A DNA stretch of 64,000 bases from Candidatus Woesearchaeota archaeon (GTDB lineage Archaea; Nanobdellota; Nanobdellia; Woesearchaeales; JAFGLG01): positions 68,134-132,133 of the forward strand of contig JAFGLG010000017.1 in NCBI GenBank assembly GCA_016928155.1, given 5' to 3'. Below, piece by piece: positions 54,554 to 64,000 of this stretch. The notes below the pieces were generated by a model that was not told the DNA's origin, searched no databases, and was given only the letters and a program-made list of their open reading frames with translations. Each line of letters starts with the position of its first letter. The stretch's first letter is position 1. A program made the translations under genes and the position numbers.

Positions 54554-55858
54554 TTATAAATAATCAGGCTTTGGAGGTTCGATCTTCTGTCTTTTCGGAA
54601 ATCTTCTTTTCGATTCCTTTGAATCCTTTCTCTTCCTGAAATGATAGAACCAGATCAGGTTGATGATTATGAGTATTATGACAAGTGTTGCCAGTATGGA
54701 ATCCATGCCTATCCTTGATTCTTCTCCCACGACATGCCCTGTCACGCCGAATCTGCTTATCTCTATGATATCATAATCCATCTTTGCCTCGAATTCGCTT
54801 TCTGTCTTCTGGTTGGCATAGTAGAGCCCGAGCTTTATTGTGTATGTGCCTGGAAGCATGTCCTCCGTATCCCAGAATGCATTTATTGTGCCGTATCCTC
54901 CCGGCTCGAGGTTCACAGATGCTGTCTTGTATTTCATCAGTTCTTTCTCTCCTTCATATGCCCTGAACACACCATACACATCATCCAGAGGCTTGTTCCA
55001 GAGGCTTTGCAGATAGATGTCGAACTTGACTATCTCCCCGAGCTTGTAGTGCTCGACAGCGATGTTTGTTATGTTTATCATGAGATTCCCGACTGTGAAT
55101 CTTTTCCTGACCACAAGCTCTTTCCCGTCGAAGTCTATCTTCGCCACTGCTGTATAATCCCCTGATCTTGCTGCTGCCCAGCTCCCTTTGATCCTGCCTT
55201 CCATCCTGCTGTTAAGGGATATGGTGTCAGTCTCGACCTTGTCTACTGTTATATTGCTTGGATCCACTATCTCTACAACACCTTTTATTGAGCTTATGTC
55301 CTCTGTGCCCAGGCTGTAGAGCGCTATTGAGAATGTCGTCGGCTGCTCTGCATTCGCCTGGCTGACATACATCATCCCATCCAGGTATTTACCTTCATAC
55401 GGGACTTTGATGTTGAATTTTGCGACTACCTGTGGTGTCGCCGCTATCTCTGCGCTTGATATCCTGATTTCGCCGTCAGAGATTATCTCATCATCTGTGA
55501 CTGTCTGAGGAAGTTTCAATATCAGTATCTCTGTCGTGTGCTTCCCAGGATTGAATACCATGTCTGGCATCCTGAATGTGAATGGCACAGTCACTTCTCT
55601 CTGCGATGCATCGACATCATATATCTGCTGTTCCAGCTGTATCTTGTCAGCGAACATGCCCCTGACATACACGAGTGCCCTGAAATCCTCATTTTCGTCG
55701 TTTATTATCCTTATCTTAGAGGTGATGGATTTCCCTGCCTCGAAGTCATGGTCTTGCCATGCTGGGGAGACTCCGAAACCTGATGCAGATCCTGTCTGGA
55801 TTAGCGCCATCGCTAGGAAGATGAATGATACAGATATCCATCTAGTCTCTCTTCTCAT
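54554..55858 (-). CDS. Exported membrane protein, paralogue of the 424-residue protein at 17108-18382
   Basis: 434 residues: signal peptide (about 1-26), several Ig-like domains, a membrane helix (about 392-412) and a short basic tail. Shared features with the protein at 17108-18382 include length, the SLWNKPLDDVYGVFRA segment and the terminal anchor. The gene is the last of the operon that starts upstream of the window end, overlapping the 1589-residue gene by ATGA. Probably an envelope component that supports the large secreted protein. Confidence 0.8.
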   Translation of the reverse strand: MRRETRWISVSFIFLAMALIQTGSASGFGVSPAWQDHDFEAGKSITSKIRIINDENEDFRALVYVRGMFADKIQLEQQIYDVDASQREVTVPFTFRMPDMVFNPGKHTTEILILKLPQTVTDDEIISDGEIRISSAEIAATPQVVAKFNIKVPYEGKYLDGMMYVSQANAEQPTTFSIALYSLGTEDISSIKGVVEIVDPSNITVDKVETDTISLNSRMEGRIKGSWAAARSGDYTAVAKIDFDGKELVVRKRFTVGNLMINITNIAVEHYKLGEIVKFDIYLQSLWNKPLDDVYGVFRAYEGEKELMKYKTASVNLEPGGYGTINAFWDTEDMLPGTYTIKLGLYYANQKTESEFEAKMDYDIIEISRFGVTGHVVGEESRIGMDSILATLVIILIIINLIWFYHFRKRKDSKESKRRFPKRQKIEPPKPDYL

Positions 55859-58800
55859 GTTTCACCTGTGAAGACCAATATACTTGATTTGTTCCCTGGA
55901 GGCTCTCCTCCTGGCACCCATACTCTTATCTCTGTCTCGACTTCATCCTCTTCTGGCCTGTAGCCAAGCTGTCCTGCTATATAGGTCCATGTTGTGCTGT
56001 TGTATCCGGGTATGTTCGTCCATTCCGTTGCAGTCCTGGTATGGCTCCAGTTGAATGATCCTGTTTCTGATGTGTTTCCTGCCTTGTACTGGAAGTGGCT
56101 TGTGTTTATCTCGACTGCATCCCATAGGCTGTCGAGTGCGTAGATGGAGAGGTTAATGTGGACATTGCCCTCATTCCGGATCTGGAATGGTGTTGGGCTG
56201 TTGTCTTCTGTGTCATTGGTCTCTCCTGTCTCTGCCTCTCCGAAGCTCACATTGGTGTCTACCTGCTCGATGATGATTGTGGGCTCTATCGTGAAGTTCC
56301 ATGTCTCACTCCAGTTCCCGTAATCATCTCCGTCAAATGCCCTTACCTGCCAGAAGAATATGCAGTTCACTTCAAGGTCATCTGGTGTTGTATAGTTGGT
56401 GCCGTTTATGCTGTAGTAATGCCTTTCTGTTCCGCAGCTGTATGGTGTTATGTTGATATCATATGTGAGGTTATCTACTCCCTCCTCGACATCTATGTCA
56501 TAGCTCTCGTTCCATTCGAAGGTCACGTTCCTCCAGAACAGTGTGTCATTCCCGTTTGTCGGGCTTATCAGTGTAGGTGCTCCAGGAGGTGTATTGGCTA
56601 TTGTCAGGTTGTTGCTGCAGTTCTCTGCCCCGTCTTCATAGCCGTCATTGGGTGTTATGCAGGCTTTCCAGACCTCATCCTTGATGATCTCCCCATCAGA
56701 CATCATGTCTGTCCTGTTCGCCGCGATCAGTGCGATCTGCTCATCAGACAGCGCTGTGTCAAACACTATGACATCATCGATATATCCGTCCCACCATGCA
56801 TCATCACCCCACGGATGCCCTCCGACAACAAAATCAGAAGACACCGGAGACCAAGAAGAAGGAGTCGTATCTTTCAATTCGCCATCGACAAATATTGCGA
56901 CATCAGTGCCATTGTTCCTGCACATCACATGATGCCACTCATCAGCCGCAATCTCAGCTGTGGAAGCCTCGGCTGAACCATCCAAGCAAGCCACTCCTGT
57001 GTCCCAGGTGTATAATTCATAACCATCATAAGCGCCATTATCCTGCCCCATCACCATACACCAGCCATAATCACCGCACCCGAGATCATTCGAATATATC
57101 CATCCTCCGAAAGTCGCAGTGTCATCAGTGAGCAGCTCAGTGAAATTCACATAATCACCATCGCCGTCGAATCTGTATGCGCCTCTTCCGTCGAATCCTC
57201 CTGTCCTGGAGTGCGCCGCCCCGACTACTGTGCCGTTATTCCCATTCCCTGAGTAATCCTTTGCTGTCGTGGCTTCATCGCCGAACAGCTTCTCGAATGG
57301 CGCAATCAGTTCTGCTGTATTGCTCCCGTCTTTTATCCATCTGTGTATGTTCTTGACAGGGTGGTTTTCCGGGTCGCTTGTGCTCTGGTTATAGACTGTG
57401 AGATTCTCTGTTGTCCTGTTGAGGCCGAATGTCGAGTTCAATATCGGCTGGCTCTGCGTCGGCGGGTCATTGTCTATCCTGAGGTCATTGCTCTGCAGTG
57501 TCGGCCCGTCGTCTATGCCGTCATTCGGTGTTATCTCGCACTGCCAGAGATCAGCATAGTCTGTCTCATCTGAGAACATCATGTCTGTCTCGCCGTTAGA
57601 TATCTGTGCTATCTGCATGTCAGATAGCGTCCTGTTCCATATCATGAACTCGTCTATTGTTCCGTTGAATGGGTTGATGACTGTTGTCGCATTCAATGAG
57701 ACATAATCCACATACATTGTATTATGCACATCGGCCTGGCTGGATCCTTCAATCCTCTGTCGGATCTCCTGTTCAAAGATGCTCTCAGGCCCATCATAGT
57801 CTATTGATGTGTGCATTGCTTCCGGCTTGTATCCGTATCTTTTTTTGTCCCAGTTGCCGAGTCCTTCTTCAAGCGAATCCTGGAATGTGAACCTTATCAT
57901 GGAATCCTTCCCTTCTATCACTTCTTTCTTATATCCGAGAAGCGCTATCACAGCCAGACCTGTTGGATGGGAGGATATCTCATGAAAATTTTCTGTAACT
58001 GGCCAGCCTCCGCTCTCATCCTGGTTTGCGAGTATTATCGGCACCCAGTTCCTGTTGAACCTGTCTGATTTTCCAATCATCGCAAGAACAGAGGGACCCT
58101 CGACATACCAGTCAGCGAAGCCCCTTGACATCAGCTTGTTCCTGTATATCACTGCATCAATCGCCCCTTCCACCATCGGATATGGGACACACCCCTGAAG
58201 GTACATCATATAAAGATAATACAATGCATGCGTAGTCCTGTAGTAATGGGAATGATTGCCGAATGGAGAATCATCAAGGGCAGTCCTGGTAAGATATCTC
58301 ACAACCCTCTCCTTGTCAAAATCGCTGTAGTTCTGGAAGAACCTCTGGCAATAAGGGGCGATTATCCCAAGCTGGATATTATTATAGGCAAGATTTGTCT
58401 CTTCCGGTATACCTTCTTCAAGAAGTTTGTATGTTGGATCGGATCTCTCGTCGAATCTTGGATCGATGACACTCAGGCTTGCAAGGATTCCAGGGACATT
58501 GATCATATCATTCTCAAAAGCGTATATATCCAGCATCTCCTCTATCTTCATGCTGATATCCTCACGCTCCAGTACAGTGTTTATGTCTTTCAGCAGCAGG
58601 ATATGGTTGTACTGGTCATCCCACCTCTCCTGCCTGAAAGTCTCCATATCAAGAAGATACTCCACCCCTTTCTCGACAGATAGGTCTATGAGATGGCTCA
58701 GCTCCTCATCGCTCATGCTGCAGTATTCTCCTTGACATATGTCTTCTTCCTGGAAGTTGAGCTCATGCCCATACCCATTCATCTCCAGGGATTCCTGCTC

Positions 58801-60624
58801 ACTCTCAAACCATCTTGATGTTGATACCACTGTTGATAGTCCGCCGCATGAGAGATCAAACTGGCAGTAATAATTATTACCCTCCCAGCATCCGGTTGGA
58901 TCATCATAGCTTAAGGTGTATTTTCTTTGGGTAGAAGAACAGGGAAGTACCCCACAACTTCCAGCAAGCCAACTTGTATAGCAATTGACTCCTCTGCTCT
59001 GTACTGTTATCCACACTTCATCTGTGCCGTATTGCACATACCCATCTGCCGGGAATGTTGCCTGCAATGTCGTCTCTGTCTGGCTTGTTGTTGAGGCCAG
59101 GAGAGTCCATTGTGATAAATCGAAGTTGTATGCATATATGTTCACTCCTGTGTCGCTTGTTGTCAGTGTGTTGTATCCTTCCCATGTCAGGGTGAATCCA
59201 GCTGTCCCAGACCCGCTTGGTACGAATTTGTATTGTGTAGTCTCATAATTACCCCCGTCTAAGTATGTAGGGCTGTAGCTTGCTCTTGAATCATCTGATA
59301 AGTTTGCCTGTATATATTGCCCTGATGTGTACTCAGTGCCGTATCCGGGCTCCTGGTCTGTAGGCAGGTCTGCATCGTAAAAGAACCAGCCCTTGTGTGT
59401 CCCATTCACCTTGTATTGAATCTGCCCTGAACAGCTTTGTTCTGCTCCAATACCGACCCAGTCATTGCTTGATGTATCCCCGGTTAGTGTCCCGGACTGA
59501 TTAGCTATTAATGCTCCATTGCTGTACAGGCTGATTGTCTCAGAGGATGCATTCCAGCTCATCGCCACCCACCCGCTTGAACCTGGACTGAAGGACACAC
59601 CATATTGTGCTTTTATCGCATCCCCGCTTGTGCCGTTGATTATTCCTGTCAGCTTTACATTTTCGAATCCGAACCAGATATATGAATTCCCTGAGCAGTC
59701 TGAGTCTTTCTGGGAATAGATTGCGCCTGATTGATTGAAGTCGATCCAGGCCATTATGGTGAAATCATCATTTGTATCCAGTCCGAAACCTGTTGTTATC
59801 TGTATGAAATCATCGGTTCCGTCGAATGAGTATGCCCCGAACCCGTCATATCCGATGTCATCGCCCCATGTTGCCCCGCTGACTGTGCCATTATTACCAT
59901 TCCCCGAATAATCCTGGACCAGTTTGCTCTCCTGCCCTTCATTCCCTTCGAATGGCAGGTTGACGAGCATCAGGGAATTTCCCTCGAGATACCAGTTGAA
60001 TATGTTCTTTATGTCGTCATCTTCATAGTCTGATGTGCTCTGGTTATGGCAGGTGAGGTTCTCCCATGTCTCATTTGTGCCGAATGTAGAATTCAGTATT
60101 GGTGTTGTCTGTGTCGGTGCTATGTTGCCATAGCAGCATACCTGCAAAGGATATGTCCCGCAGCTGCTCACATGGGCATTTGTGTAATTGCTCTCTCCTC
60201 CGGATGCTATTGAGAAGAGGCATTCATAGTTTGCCGGACAGCTGTCTGGCACAACATCACATATTACAGTCCCATTGCCTGATATGCATGCATCATAATC
60301 ATAATCAGGATAGAAATCCTGTGTCGGATCCTGCACATGGGCATTATCAGGATCACTCAGTTCCAGGAATGTTGTTCCGCAGTCTGCACTTATGTCATTG
60401 TCTGTGGAGTTGCAGCATACATGGTAATAATCTTCAAAAGGGTCCAATCTGTCATATGCATGCGCATTATGGTATCCTGCTCCTGAATCATTTCTGAGGG
60501 ATAGCATTGATGTTCCGCTTGGACATGTGTTCAGGTATAGATAGCAGTTCAGGTCAGCCCCCATCACAGCTGCCGCTATGGATAAGAACAAGAATACAGC
60601 TGTGAAAAATCTGTTTCCTTTCAT
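55855..60624 (-). CDS. Giant secreted LamG / alpha-toroid protein
   Basis: 1589 residues with a signal peptide (1-22) and no C-terminal anchor. An N-terminal Cys-rich region is followed by a LamG-type jelly roll (about 210-400, DYSGNGNNGTVSG, YSFDGTDDFIQI). Its last strand (FNGTIDEFMIWNRTLSD) appears only near residue 990. The intervening 580 residues hold a beta domain and an all-helical segment resembling terpene-cyclase-type alpha/alpha toroids (NQDESGGWPVTENF, HPTGLAVIALLGY). A second LamG (about 1110-1310), a fibronectin-like domain and a C-terminal domain like the 229-residue secreted subunit follow. Likely a carbohydrate-binding surface protein. Confidence 0.83.
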   Translation of the reverse strand: MKGNRFFTAVFLFLSIAAAVMGADLNCYLYLNTCPSGTSMLSLRNDSGAGYHNAHAYDRLDPFEDYYHVCCNSTDNDISADCGTTFLELSDPDNAHVQDPTQDFYPDYDYDACISGNGTVICDVVPDSCPANYECLFSIASGGESNYTNAHVSSCGTYPLQVCCYGNIAPTQTTPILNSTFGTNETWENLTCHNQSTSDYEDDDIKNIFNWYLEGNSLMLVNLPFEGNEGQESKLVQDYSGNGNNGTVSGATWGDDIGYDGFGAYSFDGTDDFIQITTGFGLDTNDDFTIMAWIDFNQSGAIYSQKDSDCSGNSYIWFGFENVKLTGIINGTSGDAIKAQYGVSFSPGSSGWVAMSWNASSETISLYSNGALIANQSGTLTGDTSSNDWVGIGAEQSCSGQIQYKVNGTHKGWFFYDADLPTDQEPGYGTEYTSGQYIQANLSDDSRASYSPTYLDGGNYETTQYKFVPSGSGTAGFTLTWEGYNTLTTSDTGVNIYAYNFDLSQWTLLASTTSQTETTLQATFPADGYVQYGTDEVWITVQSRGVNCYTSWLAGSCGVLPCSSTQRKYTLSYDDPTGCWEGNNYYCQFDLSCGGLSTVVSTSRWFESEQESLEMNGYGHELNFQEEDICQGEYCSMSDEELSHLIDLSVEKGVEYLLDMETFRQERWDDQYNHILLLKDINTVLEREDISMKIEEMLDIYAFENDMINVPGILASLSVIDPRFDERSDPTYKLLEEGIPEETNLAYNNIQLGIIAPYCQRFFQNYSDFDKERVVRYLTRTALDDSPFGNHSHYYRTTHALYYLYMMYLQGCVPYPMVEGAIDAVIYRNKLMSRGFADWYVEGPSVLAMIGKSDRFNRNWVPIILANQDESGGWPVTENFHEISSHPTGLAVIALLGYKKEVIEGKDSMIRFTFQDSLEEGLGNWDKKRYGYKPEAMHTSIDYDGPESIFEQEIRQRIEGSSQADVHNTMYVDYVSLNATTVINPFNGTIDEFMIWNRTLSDMQIAQISNGETDMMFSDETDYADLWQCEITPNDGIDDGPTLQSNDLRIDNDPPTQSQPILNSTFGLNRTTENLTVYNQSTSDPENHPVKNIHRWIKDGSNTAELIAPFEKLFGDEATTAKDYSGNGNNGTVVGAAHSRTGGFDGRGAYRFDGDGDYVNFTELLTDDTATFGGWIYSNDLGCGDYGWCMVMGQDNGAYDGYELYTWDTGVACLDGSAEASTAEIAADEWHHVMCRNNGTDVAIFVDGELKDTTPSSWSPVSSDFVVGGHPWGDDAWWDGYIDDVIVFDTALSDEQIALIAANRTDMMSDGEIIKDEVWKACITPNDGYEDGAENCSNNLTIANTPPGAPTLISPTNGNDTLFWRNVTFEWNESYDIDVEEGVDNLTYDINITPYSCGTERHYYSINGTNYTTPDDLEVNCIFFWQVRAFDGDDYGNWSETWNFTIEPTIIIEQVDTNVSFGEAETGETNDTEDNSPTPFQIRNEGNVHINLSIYALDSLWDAVEINTSHFQYKAGNTSETGSFNWSHTRTATEWTNIPGYNSTTWTYIAGQLGYRPEEDEVETEIRVWVPGGEPPGNKSSILVFTGET

Positions 60625-60985: not shown

Positions 60986-63900
60986 TCACCCTAGTGTTAT
61001 TATCACATTCCCGTCCTCAAACTTTATCCTTGAGGTGCCGCTGGTGTCCTTTATCGTTCCTGCGACAGTCAGGTTCCCTGATGTGATATTGACATCCCCT
61101 GTGGTATCATCAATATACATCCTCGTCGTCCCTCCTGTCTGCAGCCTCAAAGGACTGTTGGAGCTAACATTGCTTGCATACAATGTCCCTGTCACATTGG
61201 CATTGCCCTCGACATGCAGCTTCTGCGAGGGAGTTGTTGTTCCGATCCCCGTCTTCTCTGAGCTTGCATTTACGAATAATGTGTCAGTATCTACTATGAA
61301 ATCACCACCTGCATTGAATCTTCCAAGCTCTTCACTGTATCCATCTCCCCAGAATATGATGGATTTCCCTGTATCCGCAAAAATATCTGCACTACCATTA
61401 TCTATATCAAAACCTGCTGTGGATGCAGGATTGGAAAATGACACATAGCTGTCTGTAGAATAGATATATCCGCCTCGATCCAGATAGATGTTCAGGTCTG
61501 AAACACCGGAAATATTGACAACACCATCAGTGCTGGTGCCATCTCCCGGCATGATTATCACATCGCCTCCAGCAGTTGCACCACCTCCGGTTAGGAAAAG
61601 ATTGCCCCCAGATGCTCCTTTATTATGGACTAATATGTCCTCTGCATAGAAAGTATTTGGATATTCGACATGCAGGTTCCACACCTCGATCTCATCTTCA
61701 ACATGCTCATTTGCATCTAATGTTATGTTTCCATCAATTGTGTACAGTATATCCCCAATTTCCAGATCAGAAGCGATGATCCACCCTCTTGTTGTATAGA
61801 AAGGATGCATGGCAGTCACTTTTAGATTATTATTGAGGAGATAGTATGCACTCTCATTTCTGGCATAGATATCTATGATATGCACTGTTGATTGCTCTCC
61901 TGTTTTTTCGTCAAATGCCAATACCCTGTCTCCCTTCTTCAGATCTGATATTTTTGCATATCCAGCAGGGATATTGATCAAGGTATCACCTGCAAAACAA
62001 TTTCCTCCCTCAATATGGAGGTCTGAATCAATTAATAATCCTCCTCCATATCCGCTTATATAATTGCCGCCGCTTCTTGTGAAAGTGATATTTCCCCCTA
62101 ATGCCAGCTTGGTCCCGTCCCAGGTGAAGTTCTCATGACTGTCGATTGAATCTGCTCCAGACCAGAAAGTCACCCTGTTCACTGCACCTGAACCAGATAT
62201 GCCGCTTCCGCACAATCCATTGTCTTCAGTGCAGACCTCGCTGCCATTAATCCACAATCTTGCATCAACGCCGGAGAAATTTCCGCTCCCATTCACATCA
62301 AGCTTCTGTGATGGTAAATAGGTACCTATACCTACCTTATTTCCAGACTGATCAACGAAGAATGTCTCATTATCTACTGAAAGATTTAATCCGCGCAATG
62401 CAAAAACATTATTATCATAGAGATATTCATTAGGATCTACTTCAGCAGCCCCATACATACGACCTATAAGATAACTATAGTTCCCAAAGTTTTGCAGACC
62501 ATAGCCGATAGTCCCTGAACGTACGCCATGAGCTGAAGACCAAACACCATGCACAAAAGAGAAATCTCCTTCTGCTGTGACACAATCCCCTGTTGCTGAG
62601 GAATAATGACCTTCAGCACTGGCCCCACAACCCATAGCTCCAGAACCTCCGATTGCAGTTGATGAGACGCCTTCAGCAATGGCAAGATTTCCTCTTGCAT
62701 AAGAAAAATTGCCTGAAGCACCCCCCAAAAAACCCACGGAAGTCGCATAGCTGCCATTTGCCGCGGCATATCCTCTTGCAAATGAATACTCACCCATCAT
62801 TGAATCATTCAGATTATCATAATCAAAAGGAGATAAGTTTCCAGAGATAGCCAAAGCTGATTTATTGGAATTCCAGTAGAAAAGCCTGTCAATAGGGGTT
62901 CCGGTTATATCGCCTGGGAGGGCAAAGAATTTGACATTATCAACATTTGATCCATTCCCCACCTGCAGCTTCGCAGAAGGACTTGTCGTCCCGATACCAA
63001 CTTTTGTCCCGTCATCATACAGCACCCCGATACCTAATGTATCTGAATCTGTCCACCTCGCAGTGTAATTCTCAGTACCTGCCCCGGTCAGCCCGCTACC
63101 GCAGAAATTATTGTCTTCTGTACAGACCCTGCTACCATTCACCCACGTGTAATTGCCTGTGATATTCACATTTCCAGCGACATCAAGCTTTTGGGAAGGT
63201 GTTGCAGTGCCAAGACCTAATTTGCCATCACTTTTCAATGTAAGGATATCGGCATCATCACGGTTTATGTCTAACATAGAATATGTACCTGTATAAGTAC
63301 CCCCTCTAATAGACAAGGAAGCTCTTCCTATATTACTAGATAACACCATTTCAGTCCTATCATTATTAGTTGTATTATATGAGTCAGATAGGATATAGAA
63401 ATAATTCTCATTCTCACCTACACCAGTATCGCCACCCATATATGCATATCTATTAGATGGACCTTTCTGGGTCCATAACTCAACAAGATTATACTGGTCC
63501 CAGTCATCATTCTCAATAGTTCCTGCAACAAATCCGATTGATTCGTTATCCGGATCCTCACTGTCATACTTAATTTCAGAGAAACTCATTGAGCCAGACC
63601 ATAGATTATCATAAGTGCTCTTCTTGCCGATGTACACCCTGCCTTTCTCATCAATGTAGGATGTCTGATTACCATTTGATTCCCTGAATTCAATGAGGTT
63701 TGCTGTTTGTGACGGTGCTTTCTGGATTACCTGGCTTATTGCAGATGCGTTTCCATCAACAATATGGAGGGTTGCATTTGGCGAAGAAGTCCCAACCCCC
63801 ACATTTCCTGTGCTGTCATTGATAAACACCCTAGTCGTTCCACCGGTCTGCAGCTGCAAAGGAGAATTAGAGCTCACATTGCTCGCATACAAAGTGCCAG

Positions 63901-64000
63901 TCACATTGACTCCTGTAGCCACATTCACAAGATTGCCTGTGGTCAGATTATCGCTCCCATCCCACATTGCATAGTAATTCTCAGTACCTGCCCCGGTCAG
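60986..64000 (-). CDS. YadA-head / tail-fibre-like adhesin with Hint domain (5' end outside window)
   Basis: At least 1004 residues; the frame is open to the window edge, so the true start is beyond 64000. It contains tail-fibre-type repeats (VGIGTTSPSAKLQV, LGLGTATPSQKLDVAGN), a YadA-like head region (about 62455-62800) with SxATxxG-style 14-residue repeats (SYATSVGF, SSTAIGGSG, SSATGDC), and a 126-residue Hint domain (61622-61999). LTGAGTENY and NVSSNSPLQLQTGG segments recur, showing internal duplication. The C-terminus IKFEDGNVIITLG is beta-like without an anchor. Probably a trimeric surface fibre; first gene seen of an operon with the LamG protein. Confidence 0.85.
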   Translation of the reverse strand: MTGAGTENYYAMWDGSDNLTTGNLVNVATGVNVTGTLYASNVSSNSPLQLQTGGTTRVFINDSTGNVGVGTSSPNATLHIVDGNASAISQVIQKAPSQTANLIEFRESNGNQTSYIDEKGRVYIGKKSTYDNLWSGSMSFSEIKYDSEDPDNESIGFVAGTIENDDWDQYNLVELWTQKGPSNRYAYMGGDTGVGENENYFYILSDSYNTTNNDRTEMVLSSNIGRASLSIRGGTYTGTYSMLDINRDDADILTLKSDGKLGLGTATPSQKLDVAGNVNITGNYTWVNGSRVCTEDNNFCGSGLTGAGTENYTARWTDSDTLGIGVLYDDGTKVGIGTTSPSAKLQVGNGSNVDNVKFFALPGDITGTPIDRLFYWNSNKSALAISGNLSPFDYDNLNDSMMGEYSFARGYAAANGSYATSVGFLGGASGNFSYARGNLAIAEGVSSTAIGGSGAMGCGASAEGHYSSATGDCVTAEGDFSFVHGVWSSAHGVRSGTIGYGLQNFGNYSYLIGRMYGAAEVDPNEYLYDNNVFALRGLNLSVDNETFFVDQSGNKVGIGTYLPSQKLDVNGSGNFSGVDARLWINGSEVCTEDNGLCGSGISGSGAVNRVTFWSGADSIDSHENFTWDGTKLALGGNITFTRSGGNYISGYGGGLLIDSDLHIEGGNCFAGDTLINIPAGYAKISDLKKGDRVLAFDEKTGEQSTVHIIDIYARNESAYYLLNNNLKVTAMHPFYTTRGWIIASDLEIGDILYTIDGNITLDANEHVEDEIEVWNLHVEYPNTFYAEDILVHNKGASGGNLFLTGGGATAGGDVIIMPGDGTSTDGVVNISGVSDLNIYLDRGGYIYSTDSYVSFSNPASTAGFDIDNGSADIFADTGKSIIFWGDGYSEELGRFNAGGDFIVDTDTLFVNASSEKTGIGTTTPSQKLHVEGNANVTGTLYASNVSSNSPLRLQTGGTTRMYIDDTTGDVNITSGNLTVAGTIKDTSGTSRIKFEDGNVIITLG
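61622..61999 (-). other. Hint (intein-like) domain within the adhesin
   Basis: 126 codons with all Hint blocks: Cys1 in NCFAGDTLINIPAGY, block B VTAMHPFYTTRGW with the TxxH motif, and the C-terminal blocks NLHVEYPNTFYAEDILVHN. No homing endonuclease insert. The residue after the final Asn is Lys, not Cys/Ser/Thr, so classic splicing is not expected; cleavage or non-canonical ligation is more likely, as in bacterial intein-like domains. Confidence 0.85.

Follow-up and report, generated by a model that had tools for sequence, protein, structure and literature searches.

The window analysed here, a 64,000-nucleotide stretch of archaeal DNA, ends within a minus-strand gene for a repetitive fibre protein that is interrupted by a Hint domain (hereafter the window Hint). 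The features referred to below are, in window coordinates:

60986..64000, minus strand: fibre gene, of which the C-terminal ~1,000 codons lie in the window and which runs past the window end (open reading frame; PHROG tail-fibre profiles and a sub-threshold YadA_head match)
62000..62023, minus strand: N-terminal flank DLHIEGGN, aligned with NLIIEPGS of the empty site in a paralog
61622..61999, minus strand: endonuclease-free Hint domain, Cys1 to Asn126 (Pfam, sequence match to PDB, AlphaFold, Foldseek, translation)
61997..61999, minus strand: Cys1 codon, predicted thioester former (translation; kept in the fibre clade)
61805..61816, minus strand: block B TxxH motif, T62-A-M-H65 (alignment)
61622..61627, minus strand: His125-Asn126, predicted Asn-cyclisation site (alignment, translation)
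61619..61621, minus strand: Lys+1 (K127), conserved in this Hint class (translation, counts of +1 residues, alignment)
61556..61621, minus strand: C-terminal flank KGASGGNLFLTGGGATAGGDVI, aligned without gaps with ASGVGGDVYITGG of the paralog

The known part of the fibre gene spans C17:129122 to about 135832 in the genome and comprises 2,237 codons, or about 2,233 residues from the probable initiating Met. Its product has a hydrophobic, signal-like N-terminus, GIGTTSP-type repeats and matches to PHROG tail-fibre profiles. YadA-head repeats are sub-threshold in this protein and over the cut-off in a paralog from the same genome and in a fibre from a second genome of the same order (G004). The adjoining genes (RadA, RPA-like, TYW2/Trm5) are of archaeal type. 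Judged by its sequence, the host is a secreted-type phage-tail-like fibre of a Woesearchaeales-type (DPANN) archaeon. Near the fibre gene, on the same strand, window 55855-60624 encodes a 1,589-residue protein with Laminin_G_3 matches in three stretches, and window 54554-55858 encodes a 434-residue protein that has a weak, below-cut-off match to WxL-interacting protein and, towards the C-terminus, a hydrophobic segment.

Identity and fold of the Hint domain

Translation from 61999 to 61622 gives 126 residues (CFAGDTLINIP...AEDILVHN), with Asn immediately on the N-terminal side and Lys immediately on the C-terminal side. The domain matches the Pfam profile PT-HINT (PF07591) with an E-value of 2.3e-14 and 54.2 bits, above the cut-off of 27.7. 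Its AlphaFold2 model, built from 11 sequences, has a mean pLDDT of 97.3, and a Foldseek search of the PDB returned 61 matches at E<=0.001, the best 50 of which are all Hint folds. The match to Hint is thus far beyond chance. The first-pass annotation had described Cys1, TxxH and the terminal His-Asn, followed by Lys, with no endonuclease insert, all of which the translation and alignment bear out, as they do its Gly-rich flanks with HIEGG before the domain. It had also called all Hint blocks intact, which is wrong for block F, where the usual His and Asp are both Asn: compared with true inteins of the same order, the window Hint has NTFYAEDILVHN in place of HNFVANDIIVHN and VWNL in place of VYDI. 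Among non-intein Hints, Asn at the block F Asp position is 95% conserved, and the His column is only 69% His. C-terminal to the Hint, 211 fibre residues contain repeats without any other Pfam domain.

The genome holds one further Hint-type domain, a true intein ending in HN-Ser (L002, C12:31817-32101), in a different gene that is ATPase-like by its flanks. We considered recent acquisition of the window Hint on the basis of base composition and rejected it: a GC content of 0.386 is not anomalous against 0.44 (sd 0.04) for the open reading frame that carries it.

Exact insertion and the empty site

The paralogous fibre from the same genome (C8:28105-33375, 1,757 residues) aligns across the insertion point without a Hint. 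In the window fibre the junction reads DLHIEGGN/KGASGGNLFLTGG, and its equivalent in the paralog is NLIIEPGS/ASGVGGDVYITGG. When the right flank is kept in place, excision of exactly C1-N126 gives the only positive register (BLOSUM sum 16), and shifting the excision by 1-4 residues gives sums of -3 to -20. This is good but not overwhelming evidence, given a short left anchor of about 8 residues, that removal of C1-N126 would restore the register of the paralog. On this fit, the domain could as plausibly be an intein-like insert, perhaps with ligation, as a device for simple release. A clean Hint-free Gly-rich site was also sought in viral fibres and was not found, the alignments being weak; an apparent empty site further along an Omnitrophota fibre was rejected as not clean.

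A fibre-borne lineage of Hints

Related Hints were sought in the same order, in two phyla and in public contigs, and many were obtained. Any match to the window Hint occurred in 13 of 60 relatives, several of them true inteins, while a scan of viral_contigs with the window Hint as the sole query gave no relative. Fibres with GIGT repeats and an internal Hint are present in Komeilibacteria (L114), Elusimicrobia (L115), Omnitrophota (L146) and the second genome of the same order (G004, L005).

In a maximum-likelihood tree of 76 Hints, which is limited by few columns and has many open forks, the window Hint forms a clade with L114 and L146 (support 100/92), to which it is 40% and 44% identical, respectively. 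L115 lies nearby with moderate support, and the G004 fibre Hint is placed elsewhere. All three members of the clade carry the Hint after an 'LxI' strand and before a 'GG[NDS][VL][YF]L[YT]GG' turn, and C1, T62, H65, H125, N126 and K127 are invariant among them. That the catalytic residues and K127 persist at 40-44% identity argues for retained chemistry. By alignment, the G004 fibre Hint has Ser1 and Ala+1, so the chemistry appears to vary among fibres. The clade defines a fibre-borne Hint lineage common to the archaeon, Patescibacteria (CPR) and Omnitrophota.

In Omnitrophota STB_25 (JAQTSV010000001.1), the Hint DNA of the fibre (L146:4439-7999) is identical at 373 of 378 bp to that of a pilin-like gene (L118:3-1079), whose N_methyl and ComP_DUS matches fall just under the cut-offs. 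The identity begins at the Cys1 codon and stops within the Asn codon, the flanks are unrelated, and four of the five mismatches cluster near the 3' end. The pair can be explained by recent copying of an exact unit or by gene conversion between two older Hints; we do not claim transposition, because gene conversion would also end at the domain boundary. A blastn comparison of the Hint loci obtained from 15 other genomes gave no near-identical copies as recent and exact. A neighbouring pilin paralog (L118:1550-2626) is 98% identical over 163 N-terminal residues and has a different C-terminal part past the same Gly/Ser linker, a pattern suggestive of exchangeable cargo.

Conservation of Lys+1

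We scanned genome_contigs with the pattern Y[YF]AxG[VI]LVHN, leaving the next residue free. Among the matches listed, 86 have TxxH; the +1 residue is Lys in 45 of these and Cys in 17, many of the latter probably inteins. After pooling the listed matches with other loci, we kept sequences sharing less than 50% identity. In this non-redundant set, again among the matches listed, Lys is found at +1 in 42 of the 59 Hints without C/S/T at that position, compared with 5% Lys downstream, and the entropy at +1 is 2.25 bits, compared with 3.3-3.9 at adjoining positions. The binomial p value of 2e-41 ignores relatedness. Mapped onto the tree, the Lys label needs 18 changes against a shuffled mean of 25; it is thus weakly clustered and reflects more than one frozen inheritance, and part of the conservation could come from shared descent. 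The wider Hint set was gathered by motifs requiring Cys1, TxxH and HN, which makes the invariance of these residues a matter of construction; none of the motifs called for Lys+1. Besides Lys, the +1 position can hold Tyr, Ala, Gly or Leu. With Lys+1 the usual residue in bacterial and archaeal relatives, the window domain is probably a working self-processing device, not a broken one.

Several proteins stop one residue past the Hint Asn, ending in HNK (L106, L138, L144, L184) or HNY (L113, L125, L126, L128). In 18 A2M-like proteins of Patescibacteria, Lys lies at +1 to +3, mostly as HN-[DE]-K-G. The Hint directly precedes the A2M domain in L342, L402, L403, L405-L411, L413-L417, L420, L421 and L425, and in L402 it follows a bait-region domain (PF07703). 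Tandem Hints with very short linkers (for example K-G or K-D-G-S-C) are found in L031, L111, L123, L140, L161 and L166. Our search of the open-access literature found no paper on Lys+1 or on archaeal BILs.

Class assignment

A-type BILs are defined by an HN end without a +1 nucleophile (PMC4031507), and BILs occur in proteins that are not conserved, within hypervariable regions (PMC7765530). The window Hint combines the Hint fold, Cys1, TxxH and a C-terminal His-Asn with Lys instead of Cys/Ser/Thr at +1, and its host is a variable, non-conserved surface protein, the secreted-type repetitive fibre. Its sequence places it among the A-type BILs. Lack of a nucleophile at +1 is no peculiarity of this protein: it defines the class, and Lys is the commonest +1 residue in the sample examined. 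B-type BILs have no similarity to intein block G (PMC4031507) and no HN end, whereas HN is present here.

Among the matches listed, BIL structures rank ahead of mini-inteins and Hedgehog. The best sequence match is Clostridium thermocellum BIL4 (2lwy; E 1.7e-10, TM 0.92), which shares with the window Hint the fold, Cys1, TxxH, the His-Asn end, the lack of Cys/Ser/Thr at +1 and of an endonuclease, and a variable surface-type host; the window Hint differs in its DPANN archaeal host, the phage-tail-like fibre, Lys+1 and the block F change from His to Asn. The best structural match among those listed, at TM 0.93 and 17% identity, is BIL2 of Tetrahymena BUBL1 (6y75/6tmm), which unlike the window Hint resides in a ciliate polyubiquitin and is zinc-regulated. 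The best Pfam profile, PT-HINT, is that of the pretoxin Hints of polymorphic toxins; its cut-off is exceeded, but no toxin domain directly follows the window Hint. The Hedgehog C-terminal Hint (1at0, TM 0.78) shares the fold and thioester chemistry at Cys1; it has a sterol-recognition region and no His-Asn end, whereas the window Hint is internal, ending in HN with fibre sequence following. Class 1 mini-inteins (gp41-1, Ssp DnaB) have in common with it the fold, the main catalytic residues and exact insertion, here into a host known without the domain from the own-genome paralog. They differ by a Cys/Ser/Thr nucleophile at +1, where the window Hint has Lys, and its host protein is non-conserved.

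Discussion

We somewhat favour the view that the window Hint is an A-type BIL autoprocessing domain inserted, intein-like, into a Gly-rich turn of the fibre, and we infer its reactions and product balance as follows. The route proposed for A-type BILs comprises an N-terminal thioester, Asn cyclisation and ligation by an alpha-amine (PMC4031507). In the window fibre, Cys1, aided by Thr62 and His65, would turn the peptide bond between Asn(-1) and Cys1 into a thioester; Asn126, aided by His125, would cyclise and cut the chain before Lys+1; and the freed alpha-amine of Lys+1, or water, would attack the Cys1 thioester. The expected products are cleaved fibre and Hint released by cuts at both of its ends, along with some fibre religated to normal length. 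The replacement of the block F His and Asp by Asn could slow these steps or uncouple them. Cleavage predominates in A-type BILs, and ligation uses the freed alpha-amine (PMC4031507, PMC7664689, PMC7765530). The first-pass annotation, which proposed autocleavage or linkage to a neighbour, named the right kind of function, as A-type BILs do this and an isopeptide bond to Lys has been reported for one BIL; the maturation or release of the fibre that it also suggested is a putative role.

The Lys+1 side chain could itself take part. Its amine, from the same chain or a neighbouring one in the fibre, may act as the acyl acceptor at the Cys1 thioester, with Asn cyclisation freeing the Hint and leaving an isopeptide-linked, possibly cross-linked fibre. 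This alternative deserves to be taken seriously, though it is rather unlikely. Tetrahymena BIL2, the closest structure among those listed, has been reported to splice via an isopeptide bond to Lys (PMC8616854); among the matches listed, the 42 of 59 Hints with Lys+1 stand out against the 5% background and the +1 entropy is low; four proteins (those ending in HNK) terminate exactly at Lys+1; and YadA-head repeats suggest a putative trimer, with three Hints side by side. Such a role sits less well with the Tyr, Ala, Gly and Leu found at +1 elsewhere and with the A2M-like Hints of Patescibacteria, in which Lys is usually at +2, after Asp or Glu. The conserved Lys might instead be a trypsin-like protease site, serving external proteolysis beside the Hint. 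In A2M-like proteins, with bait regions that proteases target, Lys is indeed close to the junction, but it is also kept in fibres, in the pilin-like protein and in proteins ending at Lys+1, where cleavage would have little effect, and we regard this explanation as highly improbable.

Loss of the block F His and Asp, in a fibre of a kind that tolerates insertions, would also fit a degenerate, inactive Hint kept as a passive insert. We think this unlikely, since the catalytic residues and Lys+1 are kept across the archaeon/Komeilibacteria/Omnitrophota fibre clade at 40-44% identity, and changes in block F are widespread among Hints of this class. Still efficient, traceless splicing by a relic mini-intein, with Lys+1 merely tolerated, would be in keeping with the exact insertion, the register restored on excision and the near-identical Omnitrophota copies that start exactly at Cys1. 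Inteins normally need Cys/Ser/Thr at +1 and BILs mostly cleave (PMC4031507, PMC7664689), and the host is not a conserved housekeeping gene; such a relic therefore seems quite unlikely. The autoprocessing A-type BIL remains our preferred reading.

Earlier descriptions treat BILs as bacterial domains whose purpose is unclear. The window Hint is a new archaeal member of this known domain class, and it occupies an exact site for which the same genome holds an uninterrupted paralog. For the class itself, the possible novelties are the conserved Lys+1 and a fibre-borne lineage that extends across domains of life. A more speculative proposal, which we consider doubtful, is that Hints ending in His-Asn-Lys form a distinct, widespread prokaryotic class with Lys+1 as acyl acceptor, which would produce isopeptide-linked fibres, pilin-like proteins and others without ATP or sortase; the archaeal fibre Hint would then staple neighbouring chains or splice out via an isopeptide. 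Because Lys+1 is strongly conserved, the absent nucleophile becomes a testable signature and no longer looks like a defect.
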